From Syntrophorhabdaceae bacterium (lineage in GTDB: Bacteria > Desulfobacterota > Syntrophorhabdia > Syntrophorhabdales > Syntrophorhabdaceae), in the NCBI GenBank assembly GCA_026415675.1, contig JAOAGQ010000038.1:1-64000 (forward strand): 64,000 nucleotides of DNA, in the 5' to 3' direction. Shown in pieces: positions 5,307 to 40,484 of this stretch (its first letter is position 1; each line of letters begins with the position of its first letter). Both the position numbers and the translations under genes were made by a program. The notes beneath the pieces are model-generated. The model was given only the letters and a program-made list of their open reading frames with translations. It ran no database searches and was not told where the DNA came from.

Positions 5307-5313
5307 ATTACAT

Positions 5314-5342
5314 AGAGTATCAGAATAAATAACCTGAGTCAA
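5314..5342 (-). promoter_or_regulatory. Putative sigma-70 promoter of the M18 aminopeptidase-lon-amrS unit
   Basis: Minus-strand TTGACT (5342-5337), 17-base spacer, TACTCT (5319-5314; weak -10). Only 7 bases separate the -10 from the ATG at 5306, so transcription would start at or next to the initiation codon. There is no Shine-Dalgarno sequence before that ATG. Confidence 0.5.
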
Positions 5343-5397
5343 GGTGGGGTAGGCTTTCGGTATGCCGGTTGAGGGGTAGACAAAATCTTCCAAGATA

Positions 5398-5426
5398 TTG
5401 ACTTAGCCCTTATAAATTAGTAAAAT
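5398..5426 (+). promoter_or_regulatory. Sigma-70 promoter of rpmB
   Basis: TTGACT (5398-5403), 17-base spacer, TAAAAT (5421-5426). The predicted start near 5433 gives a leader of about 36 bases that includes AAAAGGAG before the rpmB ATG. Confidence 0.7.
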
Positions 5427-5468
5427 CATTCCTCTTCAGAAAAAACGCATTATGGAAAAGGAGAACAG

Positions 5469-5660
5469 ATGGCAAGGGTATGTGAGATATGTGGAAAAGG
5501 TAAACAGATCGGATATAATGTGAGCCATGCGAATAATAAGACAAAGAAGGTGTGGCTTCCCAATTTGCAGACCGTAAGGGTCGCAAAGGCAGGGGCGACA
5601 AAGAGGGTGAGAATCTGCACAAAGTGTATAAAAAAGGGGAAAATAGAGAAGGCCGCTTAA
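5469..5660 (+). CDS. rpmB: 50S ribosomal protein L28 (zinc-binding form)
   Basis: A 63-residue protein of the large ribosomal subunit with the family opening [11 protein letters not shown] and central [14 protein letters not shown]. Two CxxC pairs (CEIC near the start, CTKC near the end) mark the zinc-ribbon C+ form. AAAAGGAG lies just before the ATG. It is a single-gene transcript between the divergent aminopeptidase unit and the convergent rel gene, with its own promoter at 5398-5426. Confidence 0.97.
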
Positions 5661-5724
5661 AGGGATGTAGCTTTTACCTTAAGGTGAATGGCTTTTCGGC
5701 TTTTTTACTTCCCCTTTCTATCCC

Positions 5725-7860
5725 TTAGGCAAGGCCTCTTAGCCTCTCTATGGATTTAACACCTTTTATCTTCTGAACAGACTTTATGATCTTCTGAAGC
5801 TGGGATATATGTCCTATCTCAACTACATATATCCCAGCCGCAGATTTATCCGGGTAGGTCATTGCCTTTGCGCTGATTATGTTCGCATTGTTCATTGCCA
5901 TTACAGTACTTATATCCGATATGAGCCCTTTTCTATCATCGCTCGATATTTTAAGTCTCACGGGAAAGGTAACCTCTTTACCCAGATCCCATGTAACCTC
6001 GACCCTTCTCTGCTCGTCGTAGGTCTCAATGTTGGGACAGTCCGCGGTATGGATCGTTATACCCCTGCCCCTTGTTATAAAGCCGAATATCTTATCCCCC
6101 GGTATGGGGTTACAACACTTTGCAAAGGATACGACCATATCTTCCACCCCTTTTATCTTGATGGGGGCATCCTTTTTCCTCTTTATGGTGCTGATGAGTC
6201 GTTTAAGCTTACCAGGCTTTTCTTCCTCAGGTATAACCTTTCCCAATGCCTGAAGGGGGGTATAGAGACCGTATCCCACACTGGCAAAGAAATCGTCCAC
6301 ATTCTCAAAGCTGAAATCCTTTGCTATGTTTAAGAGTTCCCCCGATTTGAGCATCTTTGAAAAACTGAGATCGTGTTTTGCAAGCTCCTTTTCTATTAAG
6401 GCCTTTCCCAGTTCTATACTCTGCTCCCTCTGCTCTGTCTTTATCCACTGACGGATCTTGCTTCTTGCCTTTGAGGTCTTTACAAAGCCGAGCCAGTCCT
6501 TACTCGGTTTGTGGGTAGGGTTTGTTATAATCTCAACGGTATCACCGCTTTTCAACGTATACCTTAATGGTACTATCCTTCCGTTCACCTTTGCCCCTAC
6601 ACACATATGGCCTAAATGGGTGTGTATCGCATAGGCAAAATCAACGGGGGTTGCCCCTTTTGGCAACTCTTTTACATCCCCCCTCGGGGTGAATACGTAT
6701 ATCTCATCGGGAAAAAGGTTGATCTTGAAATCCTCGATAAACTCCCTGTTGTCCTTATTCTCCTGCTGGGCATCGATGAGTCTTCTGAGCCAGCCAAAGA
6801 CATTATCCACCTTGGGGTCAAAAACCTTCCCCTCTTTATATTTCCAGTGGGCAGCGATCCCCTCCTCGGCCAGTCTATGCATCTCGTGGGTCCGTATCTG
6901 TATCTCTATCTTCTCCCCTCTTGGTCCTATGACCTTTGTGTGGAGGGACTGGTACATATTTGCCTTGGGTAAGGCTATATAATCGCTAAACTTCCCCGGG
7001 ATGGGTTTAAAAAAGGCATGGATGAGACCCAATGCGAGATAGCACTCCTTTACCTCATTCACTATCACCCTGAATGCGGTCAGATCATAGATATCATCGA
7101 GTTCGAGTCTTTCCAGTTTCATCTTCTTGTATATACTGTAAAATCTCTTTGCCCTCCCCGAGATCTCAGCGTTTAGCTTAAACTGGGCAAATTTTTCTTT
7201 TAAGAGTTCGATCACCTCTTCTATATAGGCGTCCCGCTCCTTTTTCTTCTTTGCCACCCTCTCCGCAATGGCCTTATATTCATTGGGATAGAGGTATTTA
7301 AAGGACTCATCTTCTAAGTCTCCCTTCATCCACTCAATACCCAGTCTGTGGGCCAAAGGGGCGTATATCTCAAAGGTTTCTTTAGATATTTCCCTCTGCT
7401 TCTCTTCACTCAGAAACTTTAAAGTCTGCATGTTGTGGTATCTATCCGCAAGTTTTATAAGTATCACCCTTATATCCTTACTCATCGCCAGGATCATCTT
7501 TCTTAAACTCTCCGCCCTCGAATCTTCCGAAGGTTTGAGCTGCATCTGGCTTATCTTTGTTACCCCGTCCACAAGCTCCGCCACTTCTTTCCCGAAATAT
7601 TCCTCTATGTCCTCTTTACTCACAAAAGAATCCTCTATAGTGTCGTGGAGAAGACCGGAGACGATACTCGGTATATCGAGACTCATCCTCGTCAGGATAT
7701 ATGCAACCTCAAGGGGATGGATGAGATAGGGCTCCCCGGAGAGCCTTATCTGACCTTTATGGGCCTGGGCCGAGAAAACATAAGCCCTTTCCAGGGTCTT
7801 GATGTCAGCGTTCGGATTGTATTTTTGAACAGCCTCTACGATGTCGTTAAACCTGACCAT
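5725..7860 (-). CDS. rel: RelA/SpoT-type bifunctional (p)ppGpp synthetase/hydrolase
   Basis: A 711-residue long RSH enzyme that makes and degrades the stringent-response alarmone. Order: HD hydrolase domain with LLHDTIED (His72) and ADRYHNMQTL, synthetase domain with DIYDLTAFRV and IQIRTHEMH, TGS domain (about 390-450, starting IYVFTPRGD), a zinc-finger/helical region with CCNPIPGD, and a C-terminal ACT domain (about 640-711). Both catalytic halves keep their key motifs, so it is probably bifunctional. I used the ATG at 7860 (MVRFNDIVEAV), where the family normally begins. It overlaps the upstream cyclase gene by 14 bases, implying translational coupling. Confidence 0.95.
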   Translation of the reverse strand: MVRFNDIVEAVQKYNPNADIKTLERAYVFSAQAHKGQIRLSGEPYLIHPLEVAYILTRMSLDIPSIVSGLLHDTIEDSFVSKEDIEEYFGKEVAELVDGVTKISQMQLKPSEDSRAESLRKMILAMSKDIRVILIKLADRYHNMQTLKFLSEEKQREISKETFEIYAPLAHRLGIEWMKGDLEDESFKYLYPNEYKAIAERVAKKKKERDAYIEEVIELLKEKFAQFKLNAEISGRAKRFYSIYKKMKLERLELDDIYDLTAFRVIVNEVKECYLALGLIHAFFKPIPGKFSDYIALPKANMYQSLHTKVIGPRGEKIEIQIRTHEMHRLAEEGIAAHWKYKEGKVFDPKVDNVFGWLRRLIDAQQENKDNREFIEDFKINLFPDEIYVFTPRGDVKELPKGATPVDFAYAIHTHLGHMCVGAKVNGRIVPLRYTLKSGDTVEIITNPTHKPSKDWLGFVKTSKARSKIRQWIKTEQREQSIELGKALIEKELAKHDLSFSKMLKSGELLNIAKDFSFENVDDFFASVGYGLYTPLQALGKVIPEEEKPGKLKRLISTIKRKKDAPIKIKGVEDMVVSFAKCCNPIPGDKIFGFITRGRGITIHTADCPNIETYDEQRRVEVTWDLGKEVTFPVRLKISSDDRKGLISDISTVMAMNNANIISAKAMTYPDKSAAGIYVVEIGHISQLQKIIKSVQKIKGVKSIERLRGLA

Positions 7861-8830
7861 TACCTGTCCATCTGTAATACACGGTAGGCATACTATTCGG
7901 TAAAAGGGAGAGAAGACCGACCTTTTCGAAGGGTATCCCATCGTCTATCCCTGACTTTGTCTCCTCTGAGATGATGATCTCTCCAGGGGCAGCGATCTTC
8001 TGGAGTCGCGCTGCAATGTTGACAGGCATACCCATCGCCGTATACTCCTTTTTGTTCATTGAACCGAATATGCCTGTTACCGCATAGCCTGTGGAAATAC
8101 CGATACCGATCTCCAAACCTCTACCGATCTGTTTTGTCTTCTCTATCATCTCTATGGCGCACCGGACCGCATCTTCCTCGTGACGATCTTGATAAATGGG
8201 GGCTCCGAAAAGGGCCATAATGCTATCCCCAATATACTTGTCCACAATTCCCCTGTGGTTTACCACAATCTCACTCAAGGGTTCAAAATAGTATCTATTG
8301 AGCAGAGAGGCCAGTTCTCCTGGTGATATCGTTGAAGATATCTTGGTAAATCCTCTGATATCTGAAAAGAGGATGGTGAGGTGGGAGAGCCTGTGTTCGA
8401 GGTGGGAGGGTTCGTTTAAGAGCTTGTTGAATATCTCAGGGGGTATGAACTGCTTCATCCTCCTTTTCACATAGCACTCTTTTATCTTCCATTTTATTTC
8501 CTTGTTTTCAAAGGGTTTTGTGATAAAGCCGTCTATGCCTGCCTCAATCGCCTTGATCGATGACTCCAGTGTACCATACCCTGTAAGGATGATTTTTGTG
8601 GCATCTCTATGGATCTTTGTAATCTCCTCTATGGTTTTGATGCCATCGATGCCGGGCATGATAAGGTCACAGATAACGATATCCACCCTGCCCGTTGCTT
8701 CTTTTATGATGTTAAGCCCTTTTTCGCCATCCTCTGCCGTATATACAGAGTACCCCTCTTCCTTGAGTATGCGGGTGAGTGACCTCCTTATCCCTTCCTC
8801 ATCGTCTATTACGAGAATGCCGAGTCTCAT
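7847..8830 (-). CDS. Response regulator fused to a class III adenylate cyclase
   Basis: A 327-residue two-domain protein. The receiver domain (about 1-120) has the acidic pair DDEE, phospho-acceptor Asp55 (VICDLIMPG) and the late lysine in ITKPF. The cyclase domain (about 150-320) has both metal aspartates (FSDIRGFT and YIGDSIMALFG), the adenine-selecting lysine in DKYIGD and a threonine in YTAMGMP at the second specificity position, and the transition-state Asn/Arg pair in NIAARL. The Lys/Thr pair is that of class IIIb adenylate cyclases, so the likely product is cAMP. The sensor kinase is not adjacent. It has its own promoter at 8846-8874 and is followed, with overlap, by rel. Confidence 0.88.
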   Translation of the reverse strand: MRLGILVIDDEEGIRRSLTRILKEEGYSVYTAEDGEKGLNIIKEATGRVDIVICDLIMPGIDGIKTIEEITKIHRDATKIILTGYGTLESSIKAIEAGIDGFITKPFENKEIKWKIKECYVKRRMKQFIPPEIFNKLLNEPSHLEHRLSHLTILFSDIRGFTKISSTISPGELASLLNRYYFEPLSEIVVNHRGIVDKYIGDSIMALFGAPIYQDRHEEDAVRCAIEMIEKTKQIGRGLEIGIGISTGYAVTGIFGSMNKKEYTAMGMPVNIAARLQKIAAPGEIIISEETKSGIDDGIPFEKVGLLSLLPNSMPTVYYRWTGNGQV

Positions 8831-8845
8831 AATACCTGTTGTAAA

Positions 8846-8874
8846 ATATTATCGTATGGAAAGCAAAATGACAA
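8846..8874 (-). promoter_or_regulatory. Putative promoter of the cyclase-rel unit
   Basis: Minus-strand TTGTCA (8874-8869), 17-base spacer, TAATAT (8851-8846). The predicted start leaves a leader of about 10 bases before the ATG at 8830, with ACAGG just upstream. Confidence 0.5.
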
Positions 8875-8885
8875 GTCTATTCCTG

Positions 8886-10067
8886 TTATGAACCTTCAAC
8901 CACTTCCGGGATAGAACCTATCTCCAACTCCTTCCATAATATCCCCGCCTCTTTAATCATCCTTTCTAAGTATCCATAATTGCCATGGTTAAACGGGATG
9001 TTCGATAAGGTGTAGGGGTGGTATCTCCCTTCTATCACGCCTTTGAGTAAAAGTTCAACGGAGAAGAGTAGGGACATCCCCGTCTGGTACTGAACCCCGT
9101 TTACCCCGTATCTCTCCCACGTCTTTAAATGGTCTACCGACCAGCACAGGGCCCTTGAAATTGATTTCTCAACCTCCTTTACGTGTACTATGACTGTGTC
9201 TACGCCAAAGACAGGGGTTTTATTGTCGGGGACATAGAGCCTCCTTAACACTTCTTCATAGGGTAGGCTTATCGCCTCCATTATGGGGTCGTTTAAAGAA
9301 TATATAAATCTCGCACCTACAACCCCTTCTATCCGGGACAACGACCAGATATCCTCATGGGCAACGACCCTCCCCCTCATCTCTTTTCCCTTCCAATATA
9401 CCTTTACCTCTTTTGTTGGTAATGGGTACTCAAAGCAAAGACCGTTTTTCTTTTCAAAGGTGGGTAGAAGGGACATCTCATCGAGAAAAACTTCCGGGGA
9501 CCAGGCTAGGGGTATCTTATCATCTATGGTGGGAGCGGTAAATGAATCGATCTCAATGACCTCTATATTGTAAAGACCCCCCTCTCCTGCCATCTTTGAC
9601 ATAAGTATCCTTGCGATTAACTCCACCATCCCGGGGTTAATACCCTGACATATAAGGTGTGGATACGGGCTTTTTACGGGTTTCGTTACGTACTCCATCA
9701 TCTTTTGTATGCTCGGTGCGGAGTCTCCAGGGACTACCCCTGCCCCGGAATCGATATAGGCAACGGGGTATTTTGAAAGAAATAGACGGAGACCAAATGT
9801 ATCTACATCGGTGGAGAGGTTTAAAAATAAGACAGGTTTTGGGGCTTTAGATATCAAACCATCGAGAAAAGAATGGTCCTTTATGTCTCCTGAGACGACC
9901 TCGTATCTATTTTCTCCTGGTATCTCTTCCCTCCTGAGGGCTCGCCTATCCACTATAACAATTTTTTCAAATTTATCGGTTATGTTGACTCTGAGCTTGA
10001 GGATCGCCTGTCCTATTGAACCAAAACCAGCAATAATAAGCGTGGCATAGGGACTTTGTTGATTCAT
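8886..10067 (-). CDS. Homospermidine synthase-like / saccharopine dehydrogenase-superfamily NAD(P)-binding protein
   Basis: A 393-residue cytosolic protein with an N-terminal Rossmann motif GFGSIG (about 14-19), an NLSTDVDT segment, YIDSG and GINPGMVE. These occur in the same order in bacterial homospermidine synthases and in saccharopine/carboxynorspermidine dehydrogenases. Later, EIDSFTAPT and AWSPEVFLDEMS sit where homospermidine synthase has its substrate-contact segments, but those residues differ. A polyamine or amino-acid reductive condensation reaction is therefore plausible, but the substrate is unknown. It is shorter than typical homospermidine synthase (about 470 residues). It starts only 3 bases after the upstream radical SAM gene, so the two are almost certainly cotranscribed. 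Confidence 0.7.
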   Translation of the reverse strand: MNQQSPYATLIIAGFGSIGQAILKLRVNITDKFEKIVIVDRRALRREEIPGENRYEVVSGDIKDHSFLDGLISKAPKPVLFLNLSTDVDTFGLRLFLSKYPVAYIDSGAGVVPGDSAPSIQKMMEYVTKPVKSPYPHLICQGINPGMVELIARILMSKMAGEGGLYNIEVIEIDSFTAPTIDDKIPLAWSPEVFLDEMSLLPTFEKKNGLCFEYPLPTKEVKVYWKGKEMRGRVVAHEDIWSLSRIEGVVGARFIYSLNDPIMEAISLPYEEVLRRLYVPDNKTPVFGVDTVIVHVKEVEKSISRALCWSVDHLKTWERYGVNGVQYQTGMSLLFSVELLLKGVIEGRYHPYTLSNIPFNHGNYGYLERMIKEAGILWKELEIGSIPEVVEGS

Positions 10068-20146: not shown

Positions 20147-20629
20147 ATGGGTCTATTTATGAATTTTGTAGAGAGGTTATGCAGGTGGATGGGATATGTC
20201 TCAGGCTTCGCCCTCACCTTCATAATGCTATTAACGGTGGCCGATGTCTTTTTGAGGCTCTTTAACCGACCTATCGTAGGTACTTTTGAACTCGTAGGGT
20301 TAGGGGGAGCGGTGGTCATAGGTTTTGCCGTGCCGATCACCTCATGGATCAGAGGTCATATCTTCGTCGATTTTTTGATAAACGGTATGCCTAAGAAAAT
20401 ACGGAATGCGTTTAACATCGCCACAAGGATAACAGGTATAATACTTTTTATACTTATAGGCTGGAATCTTTTCTCCTATGCGTATAGCCTCTATAAATCG
20501 GGGGAGGTCACATTGACCCGACAATTACCATTTTACCCTATTGCATATGGTCTTGGGATCTGCTGTTTTATAGAGTGTCTCGTACTTATAACAGATTTGA
20601 TTAAGATTGGGGGTGGAAAATATGAATGA
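20147..20629 (+). CDS. dctQ: TRAP transporter small permease (DctQ)
   Basis: A 160-residue inner-membrane protein with four hydrophobic segments and the DctQ-type motif VADVFLRLFNRPIVGTFEL in the first loop. With DctM it forms the sodium-driven carboxylate uptake channel fed by a periplasmic receptor. AAGGAGGGG precedes the ATG. It overlaps dctM by 8 bases. No receptor (dctP) lies in this two-gene unit, which is unusual. Confidence 0.9.
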   Translation: MGLFMNFVERLCRWMGYVSGFALTFIMLLTVADVFLRLFNRPIVGTFELVGLGGAVVIGFAVPITSWIRGHIFVDFLINGMPKKIRNAFNIATRITGIILFILIGWNLFSYAYSLYKSGEVTLTRQLPFYPIAYGLGICCFIECLVLITDLIKIGGGKYE

Positions 20630-21926
20630 GGTAACCGTTGGTATTCTTGGACTCGCTATAATACTTCTGCTTTTTTTAACAGGCATAGAGCTCGCTTTCG
20701 CTATGATACTCATCGGTTTTTTAGGTTTCGGTTATTTAATCTCATGGGGGGCAGCCCTCAACCTCCTCGCCAAGGATGTCTTCGATGTCTTCAACTCTTA
20801 TGGTTTCACCGTGATACCCCTATTTATCCTCATGGGTCAGATCGCTTTTAATTCGGGTATTGCTAAGAGACTCTTTGACTGTTCCTATAAATTTATTGGC
20901 CATATCCCTGGAGGTCTTGCAATGGCCACTGTTGCCGGGGCAACGGCGTTTAAGGCCATATGCGGCTCATCCCCTGCAACGGCAGCAACATTTGCAGCCG
21001 TTGCCGTCCCTGAGATGGATAGATACAACTACGATAAGAGGCTTTCAACAGGGATCGTGGCAACGGTAGGAACTTTAGGTGTCCTTTTGCCTCCCAGTGT
21101 TATGCTCATCATTTTCGGCATAATCACAGACCAGTCCATAGGGAGGCTTTTCCTCGCCGGTATCTGTCCTGGTCTTATAATCGCCTTCTTCTTCGTCGTA
21201 ATTATATACGGGTGGTGTAAGATAAGCCCCGAGATAGCACCGAGAGGGCCTAAATCAACGTGGTCCGAAAGGGTTAAAGAGCTACCAGAGGTCATTTGGG
21301 TGCTTGTGATCTTTGTCCTTATGATAGCAGGTATACTTAAAGGTTTTTTTACCCCTACCGAGGCGGGAAGCATAGGCACGTTCCTCGTGCTGGTACTCAC
21401 CTTCGCAAAAAGAGATATAAACTTCAAAGGATACATAAAATCAGTCCTTGAGTCGTCAAGAACGGCATGTATGGTGCTCATGCTGATCGCAGGTTCTACG
21501 GTACTGGGTCATTTTATTGCCGTTACAAAGATACCGATGATCGCAGCGGACTGGATAGTAAGCCTCCCTTTGCCTCCCTGGCTTATCATGATATTGATAG
21601 CCTTGATATATGAAATTGGAGGTTCTTTCATAGACGATCTCGCCTTTATGATCCTGGCAACACCTATATTCTTCCCTGCGGTACAGAAACTCGGTTATAA
21701 CCCCCTCTGGTTTGGCATTGTCATAGGTATCACGGTGATGATCGGGGTTGTCATCCCCCCTGTGGCGATAAACGTCTTTGTCGTAAAAAACATCACAAAA
21801 ACCCCTTTCAGTACCATATACGCCGGTGTCTATCCCTTTTTGATAAGCCTCATAGTAGGAGGTATACTCCTTTTCATCTTTCCGGGTATCGCAACATGGC
21901 TACCGGGGGTTCTGATGCCAGGATAA
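20622..21926 (+). CDS. dctM: TRAP transporter large permease (DctM)
   Basis: A 434-residue membrane protein with about 12 hydrophobic segments. Conserved DctM features are FAMILIGFLGFG, the PLFILMGQIAF segment, KAICGSSPATAATFAAVAVPEM, and FTPTEAG. It is the ion-coupled subunit of the TRAP carboxylate transporter. The ATG at 20622 overlaps the dctQ stop and follows GGGTGG. No terminator is visible in the 70 bases before the convergent PEP-CTERM gene. Confidence 0.93.
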   Translation: MNEVTVGILGLAIILLLFLTGIELAFAMILIGFLGFGYLISWGAALNLLAKDVFDVFNSYGFTVIPLFILMGQIAFNSGIAKRLFDCSYKFIGHIPGGLAMATVAGATAFKAICGSSPATAATFAAVAVPEMDRYNYDKRLSTGIVATVGTLGVLLPPSVMLIIFGIITDQSIGRLFLAGICPGLIIAFFFVVIIYGWCKISPEIAPRGPKSTWSERVKELPEVIWVLVIFVLMIAGILKGFFTPTEAGSIGTFLVLVLTFAKRDINFKGYIKSVLESSRTACMVLMLIAGSTVLGHFIAVTKIPMIAADWIVSLPLPPWLIMILIALIYEIGGSFIDDLAFMILATPIFFPAVQKLGYNPLWFGIVIGITVMIGVVIPPVAINVFVVKNITKTPFSTIYAGVYPFLISLIVGGILLFIFPGIATWLPGVLMPG

Positions 21927-27538: not shown

Positions 27539-29146
27539 TTACTGATGGTCGCTCCATTTTCCGTATCTTTCTCTTAGAATCCTGTGGAGTATCTTTCCCG
27601 CGCCGCTCCTCGGCATATCCTCGTCTTTTATGAAGATCACGTTCTTAGGGACCTTATACCCTGCAATCTTTCCCCTGCAGAACTGTATAATCTCATCGGG
27701 GGTTGCGCTTTGACCTTCATGGAGGACAACGATAGCCGTAACCTGTTCTCCCCATTTTTCATGGGGTATACCTATAACGGCCACATCCTTCACCTTGGGA
27801 TGGCCCCCAACACAGTTCTCAACCTCGGAAGGATATACATTCTCCCCGCCGGTTATGATCATATTCGCCTTCCTGTCAACCAGCACATAGTAACCGTCCT
27901 CATCCCTGTATGCCATGTCTCCGGCACTGAAATATTCACCCTTCATCGCTTGAGCGGTCTTTTCAGGATCCTTCCAGTATTCCTCGAAGAGCATGGGGCT
28001 TCTCGAATATAGTTCTCCAACCACATTGGGTTCGGTAATGATGTTTCCATCCTCGTCGTAGAGTCTTATAATGTCGGAGCCTATAACCTCTCTCCCTATG
28101 GAGCCCAGTTTTGTGAGCTGTTCATGGGGTTTCAAGACTGTCACTATCCCTGCCTCTGTTGAGCCGTAGGCCTCATATAACTGGGAGTTGGGAAACATCT
28201 TCAAGATACCCAGTTTAGTATCCCTCCTCGCAGGTGCCGAGGAGCAGAGGAGCTTCTTTACACAGGAGACGTCGTATTTTGCTTTTACCTCATCGGGCAG
28301 GGCGAGCATCATGATATAATGGGTAGGGACCAGGGACGTAAATGTGATCTTGTGTTCTGCAAAGGTCTTCAATAGGTTCTCGGGGTTGAAGCTCACCATG
28401 TTATAGGCCATCACCGTTGCACCGACCCAGGTGTTCACAAAGGAATAGAAAAGAGAGTTTACATGGCAGCAAGGCATCACAAGGAGGGTTACATCATCGA
28501 AATTAAACTGGTGGTCGAATATCATGATATAGTACTGGGCAAACAACGATTCATGGGTCTTAACAACACCCTTTGGTTTTCCCGTTGTCCCTCCTGTGTA
28601 CATGATGACCCAAGGGTCTTCCCTCGTTACCCTCGTCTCAGGTTCATCGGGGCTGGCCGCCGCGATTGCATCCTCGTAAGAGATGTAACCATCATAATGG
28701 GGGTTATCGATAGCGAAGGAGACGTATTTCTCAACGGTGGGGAGATTTTTCTTCATCCCGTTCACCTGTTCAATCCAGGGAAAATCCTTACCGTCGGAGC
28801 CGTCTTTTCCGCCCTGAACTATAAAAACCTTTGCCTCACAATGGTTTATAATGTATTCCATCTCAACAGGGGCAAGTCGGAACATGATGGGGACGCATAT
28901 GAAACCACCCTTTGCGGCAGCGGCGTAGATCTCAAGCCATTCCACACAGTTGTAAGCAAGGACAGCGAACCTGTCCCCCTTTTTCATGCCCATATCCGCC
29001 AGTGCATTGGCAAGCCTGCAGGACCTCTCGTTCCACTCTTTAAACGTGTAAGATTTATAGAGGTCCTTGATGCCGATTTTGTTCGGCCACTTGAAGGCAT
29101 TCACCCTCAAAACATCTTTAGCCGTTAACCAGTTTCCATTCTTCAT
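27539..29146 (-). CDS. AMP-forming acyl-CoA synthetase (fatty/aromatic acid-CoA ligase family)
   Basis: A 535-residue ANL-superfamily ligase that activates a carboxylic acid to its CoA thioester via an acyl-adenylate. P-loop YTGGTTGKPKG, YGSTEAG (A4), YFSAGDMAYRDEDGY with the adenylate Asp, and the hinge/catalytic region ending PRSGAGKILHR (catalytic Lys). Substrate cannot be read from sequence. GGGAGGT precedes the ATG. It lies downstream of glcD and glcF in the same orientation, so the acid it activates may come from, or feed, the 2-hydroxyacid oxidation step. Confidence 0.88.
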   Translation of the reverse strand: MKNGNWLTAKDVLRVNAFKWPNKIGIKDLYKSYTFKEWNERSCRLANALADMGMKKGDRFAVLAYNCVEWLEIYAAAAKGGFICVPIMFRLAPVEMEYIINHCEAKVFIVQGGKDGSDGKDFPWIEQVNGMKKNLPTVEKYVSFAIDNPHYDGYISYEDAIAAASPDEPETRVTREDPWVIMYTGGTTGKPKGVVKTHESLFAQYYIMIFDHQFNFDDVTLLVMPCCHVNSLFYSFVNTWVGATVMAYNMVSFNPENLLKTFAEHKITFTSLVPTHYIMMLALPDEVKAKYDVSCVKKLLCSSAPARRDTKLGILKMFPNSQLYEAYGSTEAGIVTVLKPHEQLTKLGSIGREVIGSDIIRLYDEDGNIITEPNVVGELYSRSPMLFEEYWKDPEKTAQAMKGEYFSAGDMAYRDEDGYYVLVDRKANMIITGGENVYPSEVENCVGGHPKVKDVAVIGIPHEKWGEQVTAIVVLHEGQSATPDEIIQFCRGKIAGYKVPKNVIFIKDEDMPRSGAGKILHRILRERYGKWSDHQ

Positions 29147-32012: not shown

Positions 32013-32933
32013 ATGATAAATCTGATAGAGACCATAGCCCCCATCTTTCTCATAATCCTTTTTGGGACACTCCTCAAAAGGATGGGTTTCTTGAGTCCCC
32101 AGTTCATATCCGATGCGAATAGATTCGTTTTTCTATTCCCCCTGCCCTTTATGATATTTACAGGGATCGTAAAATCACAGATAAAGGATATCGCTTATGC
32201 CTCTGCCTTTTCTATCGTCCTGTCCACCTTGATTATCTTCATCATCTCCTTTTTGGTAGGTCTCTCTTTAAAACTTAAAGGGGGAAGGCTCGCAACATTC
32301 ATTCAAACAACATTCCACGGCAATGTATCCTATATAGGGCTCGCCGTAATATTTTTCATGCTGGGGGAAGAGGGTTTAAAAAAGGGTACTTTCCTCATCG
32401 GCATACTGATACTATTGAACAATGTACTGGCAATAGGGGTCCTCTCCTGGACATCGGTAAACAGGAGAAACATCTCTGACCTCATAATCCCTGTCATCAA
32501 AACACCTGTTGTCTTTGCTACCTTTCTGGGCATCGTTTTCTTATATCTACGCATCCCGATACCATCGATGTTTATGAAAAGCATAAGTATTGTTGCCAAT
32601 ATCGCCCTCCCTATGGCTTTACTGATCATCGGTGCATCGATCACATTGAAAGCAGTGAAAAAGGTCTTCCTTGTCGCATCCCTATCCTCTATTATAAAGC
32701 TTTTTCTATTACCCTCCCTCGCAATGGTCATCTATTCGTACTTTTCTCTCCCTTATAAAGAAATCTGGCCTGGCATCATACTACTTGCCACGCCTACGGC
32801 AACGACCTCATATATCCTCGCCCGAGAGATGGAAGGAGACGGGGAGCTCGCCTCGAGTATAGTTGCCCTTTCGACCATCATATCCCCCCTTACATTCATT
32901 TTATGGGGTTATATCCTTGGCCGATTTTCGTAA
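32013..32933 (+). CDS. AEC-family membrane transporter (auxin efflux carrier/malate-permease type)
   Basis: A 306-residue inner-membrane protein with about ten hydrophobic segments in the AEC pattern (PIFLIILFGTLLKRMGFL at the start; FHGNVSYIGLAV and LATPTATTSYILAREM as the conserved crossover-like segments). Family members move organic acids such as malate, lactate or malonate. It is divergent from glcD, so transport of the hydroxyacid oxidised by GlcDF is a reasonable guess. The ATG lacks a Shine-Dalgarno sequence. Confidence 0.83.
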   Translation: MINLIETIAPIFLIILFGTLLKRMGFLSPQFISDANRFVFLFPLPFMIFTGIVKSQIKDIAYASAFSIVLSTLIIFIISFLVGLSLKLKGGRLATFIQTTFHGNVSYIGLAVIFFMLGEEGLKKGTFLIGILILLNNVLAIGVLSWTSVNRRNISDLIIPVIKTPVVFATFLGIVFLYLRIPIPSMFMKSISIVANIALPMALLIIGASITLKAVKKVFLVASLSSIIKLFLLPSLAMVIYSYFSLPYKEIWPGIILLATPTATTSYILAREMEGDGELASSIVALSTIISPLTFILWGYILGRFS

Positions 32934-32980
32934 GCTCTCATTTTTAAAGGGGGGTACCTGATGACAAAGACGGAATAGTC

Positions 32981-33009
32981 TTGACTTTTTAATGGGTTTT
33001 CATTATTAT
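32981..33009 (+). promoter_or_regulatory. Promoter of the initiator tRNA gene
   Basis: TTGACT (32981-32986), 17-base spacer, TATTAT (33004-33009). Transcription would start about 8 bases before the mature tRNA 5' end. Confidence 0.75.
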
Positions 33010-33023
33010 ATAACACTCTCGAC

Positions 33024-33100
<77 letters not shown>

Positions 33101-33144
33101 ATTTTTTATATAATTTAGAACCAATATTTTTTGGACTCTCAAAT

Positions 33145-35445
33145 CTATGTTTTACTTAAAATGGTATTAATTTTTGAGAGGAGCTCCTTAGGGACTATGG
33201 GTTTAGACAAGAAATTTATCTCTTCATTCCCAATCCCTTTGTCGAGGACCACATCCCCGGTGTAGCCGCTTGTAAAGATCACCTTTATTTCGGGATTGAA
33301 TCTTTTTATTTCGTCATACACCTCTCTACCGTTTTTCTTCGGCATCACAGTATCGAGGAGGAGGAGATCTATCCCGGGGTGTGTTTTAAATTTTTCTATC
33401 GCATCCTCTCCATCGATTGCGGTAATCGTCGTGTAACCGAAGTCGTTTAAGACCTTTGCGATAAGGTTTCTAACTTCGTCATTGTCCTCGGCAATAAGTA
33501 TATTCCCTTTACCCCCGGTCATCAGTGTTTCGTTATGCCTTCTATCATCTGTATGTTCATCAATGGCCAAAGGGAGATAGATGTTGAATGTGGTGCCCTT
33601 ACCGGGTTCGCTCTGAAGGTCTATATAGCCTTTATGCTGTGTGACTATTCCGTATATTGTCGATAATCCAAGACCTGTACCTTTTCCCACCTCTTTGGTG
33701 GTAAAAAAAGGATCAAATATCTTCTCTTTGGTCTTCTCGTCCATCCCTATCCCTGTATCGGTGACGGAAATAAGGGCGTATTTTCCCGGTTCACCAAAAC
33801 CGAAGGCATGGGGGAATCTATTCGTGTATTCAACAACTTCTGTCTTTATAGTTAGCTTGCCCCCCCTTGGCATCGCATCCCTGGCGTTTGTAACGAGATT
33901 GAAGAGTATCTGGTCTATCTGGGAAGAGTCGCCGATTACGGTGATTTCCTCCTCTGTGAGGTCCGTCTCGAAGGCTATGTCTTCCGTGAGGAGTCTTTTG
34001 AGGAGTTTGTTAGTCGTGGATATGACATGGTTTAGCTTTATCGGCTTTAAGTTGATAGGTTTTTTTCTACTGAAGGCGAGTAGACTCTCTGTGAGGCTTG
34101 CCGCCTTATTCGAGGCATTTAATATCTGGTCCACATACTCTCTAAGAGGGTTTAATGGATCGAGTTGCATCTGCATGATTGTACTATATCCGATCAGTGC
34201 CGTTAGGATATTATTCAGGTCATGGGCTATGCCTCCGGCAAGGGTCCCTATCGCCTCCATCTTTGAGGCCTGACGGAGTTGTGTTTCGAGCTTCTTTCTC
34301 TCTGTAATATTCTCCATGATCCCCTCTATCTGATGGGGGTTTTTATGTTCATCAAAGATCATCTGTACTTTTAATTCCACCCATATCGCCGAACCGTCAT
34401 TTCTCTTCAAACGGGTCTCCAACGAATAGGGATTTGATATATGGTTAAGTTGCATCTTCCAGAATTCAAAATCATCTCTATCTATGAAAGTGCCGATAAG
34501 ATCCATGGGCAATAGGGGCTCAGTTTCCGTAAAACCGAGCATTTTAAAAAAGGCTGTGTTTCCATCATAAACCATACCGTCGAGGGAACAGATGAAAAGC
34601 CCTACAGGCACCCTGTCGAAGAGCCTCCTGAACTTCATCTCCGCTTCTTTCGCTTCCCTTATGTGTCTTGCCCGGGCAAGGGTAAGCCTAACGGCACTCG
34701 ATAAACGGCTGAAATGGCCTTTCTTTTTTAAGACATAGTCATCGAGACCGGCCCTCATGGCATCGATCGCGATCTCTTCGCTCCCCGAACCTGTAAACAT
34801 CACCACAGGACACATAGGCCATCTCGCTTTGATGAGTTTTAAAACGTTTAGGCCGTTGGTCCATTTAAGGTCATAGTCTGTTATTACAATACTGTATTCC
34901 CCCTTGTTTAAGGCCTGTTCAAGCTCATCCTGGGAGCCTGCCTGTACAATCTCTATCTCGGGGAATTCCGACTTTAAATGGCTTATGGCGAGTCTTCTTA
35001 TGTCGGGGTCATCATCTATCAAAAGTGTTTTAGGGTTATTTTCTACGGGCTTCGCATATATATCGATGATCTCTTTCAGGGATTCAAATGATATAGGTTT
35101 GATAAGGTAGCTATTTGCCCCCAGTTCATACGCCTTTTGTATATCCTCCGTTGTATCAGAGGAGGTGAGCATCACAATGGGTAGGTTTTTGAACCGTACG
35201 TCCTTTCTCGCCCACATAAGGACTTCGTGGCCCGATTTATAAGGCATATAGAGGTCAAGGAGAAGTAAAACCGGAAGGGGAAATTTCTCCCTGTCGTTAA
35301 ATTCCCCTTTACCCTCAAGGTATGAAACCGCCTGTTGTCCATCCGTCACAACCTGAAGGTGGTAATTGAACCTTCCTTTCTGAAAGAGCCTCTTTACTAT
35401 TCGGACTGTGACAGGATCATCCTCGGCAAGAAGGATGGTAGGCAT
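33145..35445 (-). CDS. Hybrid sensor histidine kinase with three receiver domains (REC-REC-PAS-HisKA-HATPase-REC)
   Basis: A 766-residue cytosolic signalling protein without membrane segments. Order: receiver 1 (1-130, Asp in LLLDLYMP), receiver 2 (about 138-260, Asp in VITDYDL), PAS domain (about 270-390), HisKA with phospho-His in GGIAHDLNNIL (about 405), HATPase with DTGIGM and KGTGLGLST, and a terminal receiver 3 (about 645-766, LLLDTVMP). The architecture suggests a phosphorelay hub taking input from other kinases via the first receivers. No output regulator lies next to it. AAAGGGGGG precedes the ATG. Confidence 0.92.
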   Translation of the reverse strand: MPTILLAEDDPVTVRIVKRLFQKGRFNYHLQVVTDGQQAVSYLEGKGEFNDREKFPLPVLLLLDLYMPYKSGHEVLMWARKDVRFKNLPIVMLTSSDTTEDIQKAYELGANSYLIKPISFESLKEIIDIYAKPVENNPKTLLIDDDPDIRRLAISHLKSEFPEIEIVQAGSQDELEQALNKGEYSIVITDYDLKWTNGLNVLKLIKARWPMCPVVMFTGSGSEEIAIDAMRAGLDDYVLKKKGHFSRLSSAVRLTLARARHIREAKEAEMKFRRLFDRVPVGLFICSLDGMVYDGNTAFFKMLGFTETEPLLPMDLIGTFIDRDDFEFWKMQLNHISNPYSLETRLKRNDGSAIWVELKVQMIFDEHKNPHQIEGIMENITERKKLETQLRQASKMEAIGTLAGGIAHDLNNILTALIGYSTIMQMQLDPLNPLREYVDQILNASNKAASLTESLLAFSRKKPINLKPIKLNHVISTTNKLLKRLLTEDIAFETDLTEEEITVIGDSSQIDQILFNLVTNARDAMPRGGKLTIKTEVVEYTNRFPHAFGFGEPGKYALISVTDTGIGMDEKTKEKIFDPFFTTKEVGKGTGLGLSTIYGIVTQHKGYIDLQSEPGKGTTFNIYLPLAIDEHTDDRRHNETLMTGGKGNILIAEDNDEVRNLIAKVLNDFGYTTITAIDGEDAIEKFKTHPGIDLLLLDTVMPKKNGREVYDEIKRFNPEIKVIFTSGYTGDVVLDKGIGNEEINFLSKPIVPKELLSKINTILSKT

Positions 35446-35506
35446 AATCCCCCCTTTATATTAGGTTAGTTAAGAAAAAGGTGCCATTAGATAAAAAAAC
35501 CTCCAC

Positions 35507-36352
35507 TCACTTCTTCAGTTGCCTACAGTAATTCATATAACGGCGGGACCTTAGGTCCTTCCCCATTAAAAGGTCTGTGGCGAGTATATAGGGTCTCACT
35601 ATTTTAACATTCACGATGGCGGCGGTTAAACCAGAGGCTATTGCGAGAGAAAGGAAGGGGATGTTTATGAATGACCTATTGGGCATACCGAAGGAGATAT
35701 TGCTTGCCCCAAGTACGGTGTTTACCCCGAACCCCTTTTTGACCGCCTCGATAGCCTGAAAGGTAATCAACGCAGCCTTATTATTTACCCCAACCGATTC
35801 GGCAAGGCAGTCTATTATCACATCCTCTTTTTTTATCCCCGTATGCTCTGCATAGTCTATAATCTTCCCTGCTATTTCCACCCTTTTACTCGGATTGTTC
35901 GGTATTCCCGCTCCGTCCGAGGCCATGGCAATAACGGATGTATCGTATTTTTTCACAAGGGGCATGATCTCATCGAGTAACGGCTGTTCTCCTGTTACAG
36001 AGCTTACTATAGGCCTGCCACAACCGAGCTTAAGGGCGTTCTCAAGGGCTGTTACGTTTCGACTTTCAAGGCACAAAGGGACATCGACGGTGTTCATCAC
36101 CGCTTCAACTGCCTTTGGGAGTAGAACGGTCTCGTCTACCCCAAAGGCATTAACATTTATTATAAGAATATCGGCTCCTGCCTCAACCTGGGCGAGGGCC
36201 TCATCACAGATAGGCTTTAGATCCCCTGAAAGCAGGGCATCTTTAATCGGTCCTTTACCAAAGGGGTTTATCCTCTCGCCGATAAGAACAGTAGGCTGAT
36301 TCTCCCCTATGACAACCTCTTTCCCCTTTGGACTTCTCACAACGGTATTCAT
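35507..36352 (-). CDS. Methyltetrahydrofolate:corrinoid methyltransferase-like pterin-binding protein (MT-II/MtrH-AcsE type)
   Basis: A 281-residue TIM-barrel pterin-binding protein. It has IGERINPFGKGPIKDAL at the start, ADILIINVNAFGVDE (pterin-contact Asn/Asp), PLCLESRN, NSV-like IVSSVTGE, and LGASNISFGMPNR, as in methyl-H4folate methyltransferases. Probable role: moves the methyl group between the corrinoid protein encoded in the same operon and tetrahydrofolate. Two adjacent ATGs occur (36355, 36352); the second has the better 5-base spacing to GGAGG. Last gene of the operon. Confidence 0.87.
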   Translation of the reverse strand: MNTVVRSPKGKEVVIGENQPTVLIGERINPFGKGPIKDALLSGDLKPICDEALAQVEAGADILIINVNAFGVDETVLLPKAVEAVMNTVDVPLCLESRNVTALENALKLGCGRPIVSSVTGEQPLLDEIMPLVKKYDTSVIAMASDGAGIPNNPSKRVEIAGKIIDYAEHTGIKKEDVIIDCLAESVGVNNKAALITFQAIEAVKKGFGVNTVLGASNISFGMPNRSFINIPFLSLAIASGLTAAIVNVKIVRPYILATDLLMGKDLRSRRYMNYCRQLKK

Positions 36353-36391
36353 CATCTCCTCCGTACATATTACGTCTATTTATGTGTTCCC

Positions 36392-37642
36392 TCAGTATAC
36401 ACCATATTCTTTCGTAAATTCCACCATTGCCTTTACATTTTCTGGTCTTGCATCCTCAAGGCTTGTGGCAGAATCCATGATAAATCCACCACCTTCACCA
36501 ACGATGTCTATCAGTTTTTTACAATAGGCCTTTACATCTTCTGGGGTTCCCGTTGATAGCAGGGAGCCCGGGACGTTTCCCTGGAGACAGACGGTATCGC
36601 CGAGGATTTTTTTGGCCTTGAACATATCGGTTCCCTCGAAGGCGTATATAGCCTTTCCAGGAGGTATATCCTTTATCGTTTCAAGGCGAGAGGTACAATC
36701 CCCTTCCCACAATGGGCACGGTACAAGCCCCTCGTTTATCAATGCAACCATCAACTCCCTCAAGGTTGGCCAGTAGAATTTTTTGAACTGGTCAAGAGAC
36801 ATAAAACCGTCCAAACCTTTATGGATCGGTATAAAGACCCTTGGGTTACCTGAGACCTTTGTGGCATTTACCGCCATTTCGATCATCATAGGTAATATTT
36901 TTTCACAGGCCGCTATCACCTTGTCCGGTCTCCTGTACATATCGAGCATGGAGCCCTTCATTCCCCTGAAATAGTCCCCGAGGGTGTCAAAGGGGGCCTG
37001 GCTAAACCCTCCTGACTGGAGGGGAAAACCTGCCTCTTTTGCCTTCTCCGTGTATGACCTTGCATACTTGGCGATCTCTGCAGATTTCTCTCCTGCTTTT
37101 TTTAAGGCATCGAGGGCATCGATTAACTCAGGGGTACTGAAGGGGGCAAAACCAAAGGGTGTTCCCATCGAGTATGTGATGATATTACGGATGATAGGGA
37201 GTTTCTCAAAACCTTTTAAGGCACCGAAGATCCTCGGCCAGTATCTTCTCAGCATAAAATCCGTTGGATCACTGAGAAACATATCATACTCATCGGCCTT
37301 CATGTACTCCCCTTCGACAAACTGGTAGCTTACATTTGGCCCCAGACCATGGCCTGGCCATTTCAGTTGTTTGTAATCAAGGGCCTCAAGGAGAGGACCC
37401 AGATACATAAGGGCAAAGGGGTTTCTGTCCATGTCCGGTTCGAATTCTATCATGGTTTTCCAGTGGCACTTCCAGAGCTTCTCCGGGTCATACATCACTT
37501 CTTCCATGGTCATATTCGAGTATTTTGCGGCAAAAAATCCGAATTTAGTGAATACCGGGACCCTATCGGGCTTTTTTAACGCTATCGCATCGAGTACCCT
37601 CTTCTCCCTTTCCCTGTATAATTCTTCCGGTGATTTTGCCAT
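36392..37642 (-). CDS. Uroporphyrinogen decarboxylase-family methyltransferase (MtaA/MT-I-like)
   Basis: A 416-residue UroD-superfamily protein beginning in family style (REKRVLDAIALKKPDRVPV). True HemE motifs are not evident. HKGLDGF, WEGDCTSRL and CLQGNVPG in the C-terminal half place His and Cys residues where methylcobamide methyltransferases (MtaA, CmuA, MtbA) bind zinc. Sitting between a corrinoid protein and a pterin methyltransferase, it is best read as the enzyme that demethylates the substrate, or otherwise transfers methyl to or from the corrinoid. The substrate is unknown. It starts one base after the corrinoid gene stop. Confidence 0.82.
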   Translation of the reverse strand: MAKSPEELYREREKRVLDAIALKKPDRVPVFTKFGFFAAKYSNMTMEEVMYDPEKLWKCHWKTMIEFEPDMDRNPFALMYLGPLLEALDYKQLKWPGHGLGPNVSYQFVEGEYMKADEYDMFLSDPTDFMLRRYWPRIFGALKGFEKLPIIRNIITYSMGTPFGFAPFSTPELIDALDALKKAGEKSAEIAKYARSYTEKAKEAGFPLQSGGFSQAPFDTLGDYFRGMKGSMLDMYRRPDKVIAACEKILPMMIEMAVNATKVSGNPRVFIPIHKGLDGFMSLDQFKKFYWPTLRELMVALINEGLVPCPLWEGDCTSRLETIKDIPPGKAIYAFEGTDMFKAKKILGDTVCLQGNVPGSLLSTGTPEDVKAYCKKLIDIVGEGGGFIMDSATSLEDARPENVKAMVEFTKEYGVY

Positions 37643-37643
37643 C

Positions 37644-38273
37644 TCAACCTCCTATCCACTGTCTGCAGAGGTTAACCGCCGCAATCGCATCCTTACCGTA
37701 GGCATCGGCCTTGACATATTTTCTTACCTCATCGTCCATCTGGCCGCCCCCTATCATGATTTTGATGGAGTCTCTAAGGCCTGCCTTTTCCAGTGCCTCT
37801 ACCGTCTGTTTCATCGAATCAAAGGCGAGGGTGAGAAACCCTGAAAGGCCTACCACCTGGGGTTTAAATTCCCTTATCTTCTCTACAAAAGTTTCAACAG
37901 GAACATCGATACCGAGGTCGAGTACCTCGTAGCCTGCAACGTCCACCATGAATGTGACGATATCCTTACCTATATCATGGATATCCCCTGCCACGGTACC
38001 TATCAGAACCTTCCCTTTCTTTACCCCTCCCCCTTCACCTTCGAGAAGGGGCTTAACGATGTCAGAGATGGACCTTAAAATCTCCCCTGCCATCATCAGA
38101 TCCGGTATAAAGTATTCTCCTGTCTCAAACCTTTTACCCACGATTTCCATGGCAGACCTTGCATCATCGAGGATGTCCATGGGGTTTGCCCCTTTTTCGA
38201 TAAGCTCTTTTACAAGGGCTATGGTATTTTCTTCGTCTAAATCTGCCATGAGTTGTACAAGTTTTTCGTTCAT
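37644..38273 (-). CDS. Methyltransferase cognate corrinoid (cobalamin-binding) protein
   Basis: A 209-residue protein of the MtaC/MtbC/MtvC/OdmA type. A four-helix cap domain (about 1-85) is followed by a Rossmann B12 domain with the base-off/His-on motif DIHDIGKDI and VDLG-like VLDLGID, SGFLT and GGGQ. The cobalt-coordinating His is present. It shuttles the methyl group between the two partner enzymes encoded downstream. Two ATGs (38276, 38273) follow GGAGG; the second has better spacing. It lies 43 bases downstream of the dctP-type gene. Confidence 0.93.
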   Translation of the reverse strand: MNEKLVQLMADLDEENTIALVKELIEKGANPMDILDDARSAMEIVGKRFETGEYFIPDLMMAGEILRSISDIVKPLLEGEGGGVKKGKVLIGTVAGDIHDIGKDIVTFMVDVAGYEVLDLGIDVPVETFVEKIREFKPQVVGLSGFLTLAFDSMKQTVEALEKAGLRDSIKIMIGGGQMDDEVRKYVKADAYGKDAIAAVNLCRQWIGG

Positions 38274-38316
38274 CATTGCCTCCAAATTATTTTTCAATTT
38301 TTAAAAAGGGGCGAAG

Positions 38317-39321
38317 TTACTTCCCCTTTGAAAGCAGTTTTTTGAGCTCCGGTCCATACTGGGGGCTCTTCTGTATTACATCCTTCCAGCCCTCTTCATA
38401 GGCCACCCTTAAGAACTTCTCCTTTTCAGCAGGGGGTAAGGTTATAACCTGGATCCCCTCTTTCAAAAGAAGGGGTCTCTCCTCCCTCTGCAGTTCCTCA
38501 AATTTTGCAACAGCCCTCTTTTCGGCCTCTATTGTTGCCTCTGTAAGTATATCCTGCAGTTTCTTTGGTAGTTTCTTCCAAGTGTTAAGGTTTATCATAA
38601 TCGGATTTGGCCCCCGATAAAAGGGGACATCCACTATATACTTCGTATGCTTGTGCCAACCGTAATCCCTTATCCCTACCGTCACCATACAGTATCCGTC
38701 TACAACCTTTCTCTCTAACGCCACATAGAGATCAGTAATGGGGATGACAACAGGATTTCCCCCCAGGCCCTTTACAACCTGCAGATACATAGGGGATACC
38801 CTGATGTTAAAACCTGTTAGATCAGCACTCTTTATAGGCTTTAACATATAGAGATAGAATTTCTGGTCATGACCAAGCCTTCCGAGAAAGTGGATGCCAA
38901 GCCTTTTTTCATGAAGGTCATTCCAGAAGTCCATTACCCCTCTCGCCCTCTCCTCCATGGGTGTAAAATCAGAGAGTTTCATCGCATCGACTTCAGCCAA
39001 AAGGGATACATAGAAGGCATTTGCAGTGTAACATACATCGACCATACCCCTCTGTACTGCCCCAACCTGATCCGGTATCTTCACCGCTTCAGGGCCCCCT
39101 ACCCACTGTATCTTAAGTTCCCCCGGAGCCCTTTTTGCCACGAGTTTTTCAACTTCTTCTACCCAAATCGTAAAAGGTATGTTATCAGGGGCCGTCTTTG
39201 GAAAGGCCGTTACCGCTTTGATCGTAAAGGTCTCTGCTGCATTTACATAACCATGGTTTTGTATCGACGTGATGATCATGATCGATAAGAGAACGATTAG
39301 TCCAATAAAAATTCTCTTCAT
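38317..39321 (-). CDS. dctP: TRAP transporter substrate-binding protein (DctP family)
   Basis: A 334-residue periplasmic receptor: signal peptide (about 1-29, hydrophobic IFIGLIVLLSIMIITS), then the DctP fold with FNIRVSPMYLQVVKGLGGNPVVIP and the substrate-carboxylate arginine in that segment, LYVALERKVVDGY and WKKLPKKLQDIL. The ATG at 39321 is preceded by GGAGGG. An ATG at 39366 would lie at or before the predicted transcription start. No permease is adjacent; instead it heads an operon for corrinoid methyl transfer. Confidence 0.9.
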   Translation of the reverse strand: MKRIFIGLIVLLSIMIITSIQNHGYVNAAETFTIKAVTAFPKTAPDNIPFTIWVEEVEKLVAKRAPGELKIQWVGGPEAVKIPDQVGAVQRGMVDVCYTANAFYVSLLAEVDAMKLSDFTPMEERARGVMDFWNDLHEKRLGIHFLGRLGHDQKFYLYMLKPIKSADLTGFNIRVSPMYLQVVKGLGGNPVVIPITDLYVALERKVVDGYCMVTVGIRDYGWHKHTKYIVDVPFYRGPNPIMINLNTWKKLPKKLQDILTEATIEAEKRAVAKFEELQREERPLLLKEGIQVITLPPAEKEKFLRVAYEEGWKDVIQKSPQYGPELKKLLSKGK

Positions 39322-39370
39322 AACCCTGTCCCTCCTTAATTGTGTCGTTTTTTTAATGCTTTTCATAGTT

Positions 39371-39399
39371 CATATAATATATATAGAACCATAAGTCAA
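39371..39399 (-). promoter_or_regulatory. Promoter of the dctP-corrinoid methyltransferase operon
   Basis: Minus-strand TTGACT (39399-39394), 17-base spacer, TATATG (39376-39371). The predicted start near 39364 supports the downstream ATG at 39321. Confidence 0.65.
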
Positions 39400-39506
39400 T
39401 AAACTTTCGCTTTCCATGATTGATGTCTCCCAAAGGATACATCCCAATTGATTTTATGAGGTTTATAAGTTAAATTGGATGAGTTTTTAATCTATGGAGG
39501 GAAAGG

Positions 39507-40484
39507 ATGAAAAGAGTTTTCAGCGGGATACAGCCAACAGGAGAAATCCACATCGGAAATTATGTCGGTGCGATAAGGAACTGGGTCCATCTGATGGAAG
39601 AGTACGACTGTATCTTCTCTGTGGTTGACTATCATGCGATTACAATAGATTACGAGATATCAGTACTGGGTAAAAGGTGTATAGAGACCGCGATGATACT
39701 GATCGCCAGCGGTCTCTCCCCTGAAAAATGCAACATCTTTATCCAGTCCCATGTACCTGAACATACGGAACTCGCCTGGATATTCAATTGTGTAACCCCT
39801 GTCGGAGACCTCGAAAGGATGACCCAGTTTAAGGAAAAGGCAAAACAACACAGGGGAAATATCAATATGGGGCTTATGGATTACCCCGTATTACAGGCAG
39901 CGGACATACTGATATATAAAGCAGGTTACGTGCCTGTAGGGGAGGACCAGATACAGCATATCGAGCTATCGAGGGAGGTGGCAAGGAAGTTCAATGCCCG
40001 TTTCGGAAGACTATTTCCCGAGCCTGAGGCCATCATGTCTATTGCCCCGAGGATCCTCGGGGTCGATGGGGTTTCAAAGATGTCAAAATCCATGAACAAC
40101 TACATAGGGCTCCTCGAAGACAAAAATATTATATGGGAGAAGCTGAGAACCGCCGTTACCGATGTAAACAGGGTAAGGAGAAGCGACAAGGGAAACCCTG
40201 ACTTATGCAATATCTATACTATCCACAGGGCGTTTTCATCGGAGGATGTACTTCTTGAGATAGACAAAGGATGTAGGAGTGCAGGTATAGGGTGTATCGA
40301 TTGCAAGAAGAAGCTTTTTGAGAATATGATGGTTGAGCTCGATCCCATAAGGGAAAGGGCGATATATTTAAGGGAGAATATCGATTATGTCCATGATGGG
40401 ATAAGAAAAGGGGCGATTAACTGTCGGGCAATTGCAAAGAAGACAATGGAAGAGGTGAGAGAGGCCTTAGGGCTATTGCCTTGA
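39507..40484 (+). CDS. trpS: Tryptophan-tRNA ligase
   Basis: A 325-residue class I aminoacyl-tRNA synthetase. Signature motifs are the HIGH-like HIGNYVGAI near residue 14 and KMSKSMNNYI near 194, with the TrpRS segment DYPVLQAADILIY and EDQIQHIEL. Length fits the bacterial enzyme. GGAGGGAAAGG precedes the ATG. Its TGA stop sits inside the -35 hexamer of the murI promoter. Confidence 0.97.
   Translation: MKRVFSGIQPTGEIHIGNYVGAIRNWVHLMEEYDCIFSVVDYHAITIDYEISVLGKRCIETAMILIASGLSPEKCNIFIQSHVPEHTELAWIFNCVTPVGDLERMTQFKEKAKQHRGNINMGLMDYPVLQAADILIYKAGYVPVGEDQIQHIELSREVARKFNARFGRLFPEPEAIMSIAPRILGVDGVSKMSKSMNNYIGLLEDKNIIWEKLRTAVTDVNRVRRSDKGNPDLCNIYTIHRAFSSEDVLLEIDKGCRSAGIGCIDCKKKLFENMMVELDPIRERAIYLRENIDYVHDGIRKGAINCRAIAKKTMEEVREALGLLP

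Follow-up and report, generated by a model that had tools for sequence, protein, structure and literature searches.

The corrinoid-dependent demethylases closest to the locus described here are built from three catalytic parts. In the CdmBCA system of Acetobacterium dehalogenans (PMC13222342; 9rui) these are a substrate:corrinoid methyltransferase (MT-I) of the uroporphyrinogen decarboxylase (UroD) superfamily, a separate corrinoid protein, and an AcsE/OdmA-type pterin:corrinoid methyltransferase (MT-II). MtvABC, OdmABC, VdmB and the archaeal MtoABCD share the same parts. CdmB is the proven chloromethane MT-I, and MtvB, OdmB, VdmB and MtoB, which act in methoxyaromatic demethylation, have been described as its close relatives (PMC13222342). 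At first inspection, a four-gene cluster in a Syntrophorhabdaceae bacterium (contig JAOAGQ010000038.1) fits this model, with one addition. In the 64,000-nucleotide stretch that we analyzed, referred to as the window, the genes for a corrinoid protein, an MT-I and an MT-II follow dctP, which encodes the solute-binding receptor of a tripartite ATP-independent periplasmic (TRAP) transporter. We propose, with moderate confidence, that the cluster constitutes a corrinoid-dependent demethylase whose substrate is delivered by a high-affinity carboxylate receptor, acting most likely on a methoxylated aromatic acid.

All four products match their Pfam families far above the cut-offs (DctP, 109 bits; B12-binding, 79, and B12-binding_2, 61; URO-D, 92; Pterin_bind, 80). 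A preliminary description of the locus reported four open reading frames (ORFs) on one strand, separated by 43, 1 and 39 bases; the ORFs, start codons and gaps are confirmed, the last gap being 36 to 39 bases, and a plausible ribosome-binding site precedes each gene. The dctP product has an N-terminal signal-peptide-like stretch (MKRIFIGLIVLLSIMIITSIQNHGYVNAAE), and an in-frame ATG at 39366 is a less likely alternative start. The corrinoid protein is MtvC/OdmC/CdmC-like, with a DIHDIGK cobalamin-binding motif. Its top solved relative is 4jgi (E 1.7e-51) and that of MT-II is 4o0q (E 4.7e-35), both of which we take to be O-demethylase parts from Desulfitobacterium hafniense. These family matches, and the recurrence of the trio or of pairs from it in many loci, bear out the earlier assignment of a demethylation system of MT-I, corrinoid protein and MT-II. 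The same account had called the system undescribed. This stands for the MT-I clade, of which our literature search found no characterized member, but not for the chemistry, which is of the Odm/Mtv/Mto/Cdm type.

The association of receptor and methyltransferase recurs beyond the window. We drew relatives from 79 genomes and from named genomes and compared their ORFs with the window proteins; comparison loci are numbered with the prefix L, and contigs of the window's own genome (G000) with the prefix C. Within four ORFs and on the same strand as the 31 MT-I relatives of at least 55% identity, a corrinoid protein gene was found in 12 cases, MtrH in 8, DctP in 7, RACo in 4, and formyltetrahydrofolate synthetase (FTHFS) in 3. 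From the density of DctP genes in the window's own genome, about 1 of the 31 would be expected to have such a neighbor (P about 1e-4), and DctP lies near at most 2 of 101 more distant MT-I relatives (Fisher P 0.0006 versus 7 of 31), although shared ancestry and taxonomic differences make these statistics optimistic, and part of the counts reflects shared ancestry and TRAP-rich lineages. The receptors beside MT-I fall into three unrelated types, mostly 20 to 30% identical between types, which argues that receptors were recruited repeatedly. Because the pairing recurs with three unrelated types, a real functional link of TRAP receptor and MT-I is supported. The preliminary description would be refuted, by its own terms, if no related genome conserved the neighborhood; this is not the case, as partial orders do recur: Cor-UroD-MtrH at L111, L113, L157, L119, L121, L134, L136 and L182, dctP-cor-uroD at L047, and uroD-dctP at L044, L045 and L013. 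The complete dctP-cor-uroD-mtrH order, however, is present only in the window among the loci compared.

Other transporters also adjoin MT-I relatives, namely tripartite tricarboxylate transporters (TTT; L056), branched-chain-type ATP-binding cassette (ABC) systems (L051, L052, L120) and major facilitator superfamily (MFS) proteins (L047, L116). TRAP, ABC and TTT systems have all been cited for aromatic-acid uptake (PMC5812351), and so have MFS proteins. In contrast, the transporter partners reported for methoxyaromatic O-demethylases are MFS proteins (PMC8630106, PMC8359953), including those of the Mto system (PMC8630106). In the literature covered, which excluded most subscription journals, we found no paper joining TRAP transporters to corrinoid demethylases.

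The window receptor is best matched among solved structures by 4mnc/4mni (E 3.7e-44 over the whole protein; next best, 2.5e-14), which come from Polaromonas, an organism unrelated to that of the window. The Arg of the IRVSP segment, the usual carboxylate binder, is conserved between them. The ligand of 4mnc/4mni is presumably benzoylformate, which has no methyl group; a literature search on the ligands of 4mnc/4mni and 4pgn/4pgp found nothing relevant. There are no DctQM genes beside the window dctP. One candidate partner is a permease elsewhere in the window (Table 1), whose DctM and DctQ are 67% and 49% identical to their counterparts in L143, where Cor, DctP, DctQ, DctM, two UroD genes and MtrH lie together. 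A second candidate, likewise a permease lacking a receptor gene, is encoded in the same genome at C65:22667.

The latter permease is central to the most serious alternative, in which the demethylase is real and dctP is a passenger that serves the 2-oxo/2-hydroxy acid permease of C65. The family of the window receptor is usually found in operons of a 2-oxoacid:ferredoxin oxidoreductase (POR), DctQM, DctP and LarA, and DctP relatives 59 to 64% identical to that of the window are housed in operons of the form POR-(GntR)-DctQ-DctM-DctP-LarA. The C65 operon (L039 = G000:C65:18000-36000, 295-9546) encodes the oxidoreductase, DctQ, DctM and LarA with no DctP, and its DctM is mostly 77 to 85% identical to those of relatives; DctP is present in its counterparts L228, L229, L231-L233, L235 and L237. 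Against this, the closest relative of the window receptor (71 to 74%), from another genus of the same family (L053), is encoded 81 bases upstream of an MT-I gene (63%), and a DctP tree built without long branches pairs these two receptors with support of 95/96. Moreover, unrelated DctP types lie beside other MT-I genes, another receptor of this family in the same genome (C48, 60%) could serve C65 instead, and two UroD genes border the C65 operon itself, next to LarA and on the opposite strand. We therefore consider a passenger dctP unlikely, although it is the best of the alternatives.

MT-I itself has a single strong match among solved structures, CdmB (E 9e-40 with the sequence alone; 6.8e-74 with a profile of 58 members, to which true uroporphyrinogen decarboxylases score at most 30 bits), at 26% identity over the full length. 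The MtaA and CmuA models give only 21 to 35 bits. An AlphaFold2 model (pLDDT 96) predicts a UroD/MtaA fold, and a Foldseek search with it against a copy of the PDB to April 2026 did not return CdmB among its matches. All 58 clade members carry Glu313, His274 and Arg319, and 27 of them have Asp315; the positions of the invariant three are not conserved in CdmB. Glu313, aligned via UroD, falls at what we take to be the zinc His of MtaA. In the alignment of the 58 members there is no conserved Cys at the other two zinc-type sites, so that the His-Cys-Cys site is absent, as is the E-X14-E-X20-H arrangement from MT-I, which we take to be a zinc pattern. S-methyltransferases are marked by His-Cys-Cys, and O-methyltransferases by carboxylates or non-ligands (PMC10418091); by this rule, the clade is not of the S-type.

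We rejected a coenzyme-M or S-methyl identity (MtaA/SCMT/Mlp) on the absence of the His-Cys-Cys zinc site. The type 1 mlp clusters and MtaA/SCMT (PMC10418091) are thus similar to the window cluster in having UroD-superfamily and corrinoid proteins but differ in this site. Orthology to CdmB was likewise rejected, since 26% identity is below the 31% of MtoB to CdmB and the His/Glu/Arg set is not conserved. The mec cassette for dichloromethane (PMC9768040) resembles the window in that a single cluster combines several UroD-type MT-I genes, a corrinoid protein, an MT-II and, in some cases, RACE; however, MecC (343 residues), MecE (337) and MecI (288) are shorter than the window MT-I, and MecE belongs to the CmuA/MtaA family. 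A search of a plasmid collection for the reference O-demethylases returned only a distant Sporomusa protein (26%). In Chloroflexi/Dehalococcoidia (L152, L170, L175), some five to seven UroD-type MT-I genes stand in tandem, a strong local expansion, and in L152 and L175 one corrinoid and one MtrH gene lie beside the array.

That no solved protein other than CdmB is a close relative, and that the MT-I, corrinoid and MT-II parts are equal, could suggest a Cdm-type haloalkane (chloromethane) dehalogenase. Indeed, two MT-I proteins of 'Ca. Formimonas warabiya', which degrades dichloromethane, fall within the wider clade (L149, L166) and are the best two DCMF matches to the C-terminal part of CdmB, and because of this membership and these matches the window clade is probably the uncharacterized Clade I of PMC13222342. 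Nevertheless, we judge a dehalogenase very unlikely. In addition to the low identity and the missing residues, a gaseous substrate would not require uptake by TRAP, TTT or ABC systems, yet these recur beside MT-I. No transporter is reported as belonging to Cdm.

The remainder of the genome could accommodate the methyl group. G000 (2.56 Mb, 99% complete) encodes 18 DctP, 17 DctM and 5 UroD-family proteins, and two methyltransferase-type corrinoid proteins (window and C66) plus a regulator-like one (C3). Its three Pterin_bind proteins are dihydropteroate synthase-like, AcsE-like beside carbon monoxide dehydrogenase/acetyl-CoA synthase (CODH/ACS), and the window MT-II, which leaves the last as the only obvious MT-II for all of the MT-I candidates. 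FTHFS is on C42, and CODH/ACS, CdhD and AcsE are also present. The corrinoid activator RACo, which the preliminary description noted as missing from the window, is encoded by two genes elsewhere (C26, C34), none being in the cluster; the C26 gene lies 5.5 kb from a 2-hydroxyglutaryl-CoA dehydratase-type gene pair (L221, 6408-16259).

The protein families, the predicted MT-I fold, the gene order, the recurring parts and the genes for RACo, CODH/ACS and FTHFS are read from the DNA; co-transcription, the direction of the reaction, the O-methyl chemistry, the aromatic substrate, the folate acceptor and the permease partner are what we infer. The receptor would bind an organic anion in the periplasm for delivery to a TRAP permease whose genes lie elsewhere, those in the window and on C65 being candidates. 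In the cytoplasm, MT-I would enable the corrinoid protein's Co(I) to accept a methyl group of this anion, most likely the O-methyl of an aromatic acid of the methoxybenzoate, vanillate or syringate class. MT-II would then transfer the methyl from methyl-Co(III) to folate for entry into the Wood-Ljungdahl pathway, and the unlinked RACo would re-reduce spent cobalt. An acyl-CoA ligase in the window (Table 1) may provide a downstream step; a relative, 75% identical, adjoins an MT-I relative in L046, and a PDB search with the ligase at E <= 1e-80 gave no match. In L046 (2138-8131), acyl-CoA ligases and a four-gene BCR/HGD-type set (two catalytic and two activase subunits) flank the MT-I relative, and all of its benzoyl-CoA reductase/2-hydroxyacyl-CoA dehydratase-family genes score below the family-specific benzoyl-CoA reductase cut-offs. 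The reductase set and ligase of L046, taken with the aromatic-acid transporter precedents, favor an aromatic acid as the substrate.

Several points weigh against the proposed methoxyaromatic demethylase. Given the usual operon of its family, the receptor may bind a methyl-free 2-oxo or 2-hydroxy acid. The likeness of MT-I to MtvB, OdmB, VdmB and MtoB runs via CdmB, their relative, and not through direct sequence comparison. Lastly, two pterin-contact positions of MT-II carry Glu and Ser instead of the Asp and Asn of AcsE/OdmA, so that the acceptor is not secure; in AcsE numbering these are presumably Asp75 and Asn96, with Asp160 kept. The protein scores 239 bits against the NCBIfam model for methyltetrahydrofolate:corrinoid/iron-sulfur protein methyltransferase, below its cut-off of 259. 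The catalytic Asn is retained in its SN[IV]S motif (here SNIS), as is the ID-motif Asp. Whereas CdmA is said to retain all tetrahydrofolate determinants, the window MT-II does not, and folate is a less certain acceptor for it than for CdmA. It is still the probable one because FTHFS genes adjoin MT-I in L048, L050 and L109. The Glu/Ser site defines an MT-II subclade (window, L109, L111, L113, L157) and may reflect a different acceptor or another way of binding it.

A broader proposal, which we offer tentatively and regard as doubtful, is that the clade has a substrate class of its own: a non-canonical acid, such as a methyl ether of a 2-hydroxy or aryl-2-oxo acid, handled afterwards by LarA and the 2-oxoacid oxidoreductase, each system having its own high-affinity acid transporter and an MT-II whose pterin is bound unlike tetrahydrofolate in AcsE. 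Removal of an N-methyl group, rather than an O-methyl group, from glycine betaine or a similar acid is, in our estimation, as improbable as dehalogenation: MtgC models give the corrinoid protein scores that fall below their cut-offs, and TRAP systems do take charged acids, yet MttB, not UroD, is the family of the known betaine MT-I enzymes, and no MttB gene lies in the window cluster. Least probable of all is a biosynthetic role, in which the corrinoid protein and MT-II would supply methyl for methionine synthesis, as might be thought from the lack of any match to PF02574 (the MetH homocysteine domain) or PF01717 (MetE) in this 99% complete genome, since PF01717 may miss divergent core synthases such as MesB and MesC (no match came from the control, Methanosarcina acetivorans, of a genus reported with MesC), MT-I has no His-Cys-Cys thiol site, and both the transporters and the expansion of MT-I genes suggest catabolism.

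The proposed demethylase genes and the other features of the window are listed in Table 1. The preliminary description had placed the four genes behind one promoter, which we could not uphold: sigma-70-like sites occur at chance frequency in our scan, with none directly upstream of 39321. Terminator-like sites are also at chance frequency, with none on the minus strand in 32900-39600 and hence none between the cluster genes, and no Rfam riboswitch or RNA element matched upstream of the cluster. Long ORFs antisense to real genes, e.g., 28463-29128, are considered chance.

Table 1. Features of the cluster and of other parts of the window
Feature	Coordinates	Strand	Remarks
dctP, TRAP solute-binding receptor	39321-38317	-	AGGAGG ahead of ATG 39321
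Corrinoid protein gene	38273-37644	-	GGAGG ahead of ATG; program-called ORF start is TTG 38297
MT-I, UroD-superfamily substrate:corrinoid methyltransferase gene	37642-36392	-	Pfam URO-D; 416 residues
MT-II, pterin:corrinoid methyltransferase, AcsE/MtrH/OdmA type	36355 (or 36352)-35507	-	
Hybrid histidine kinase gene	35445-33145	-	61 bases downstream of MT-II gene
AMP-forming acyl-CoA ligase	27539-29146	-	Possible downstream step
dctQ-dctM, TRAP permease without neighboring dctP	20147-21926	+	Candidate partner of the receptor

UroD-superfamily methyltransferases are abundant in the genomes of anaerobes, and most are without an assigned substrate. A stable tie to transporters with solute-binding proteins offers a way to assign one, as screening for the receptor's ligand is cheap and ought to reveal the substrate. 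Should that ligand be a methoxylated aromatic acid, widespread uncultured bacteria of sediment and groundwater would gain a role in the anaerobic turnover of lignin-derived methyl groups.

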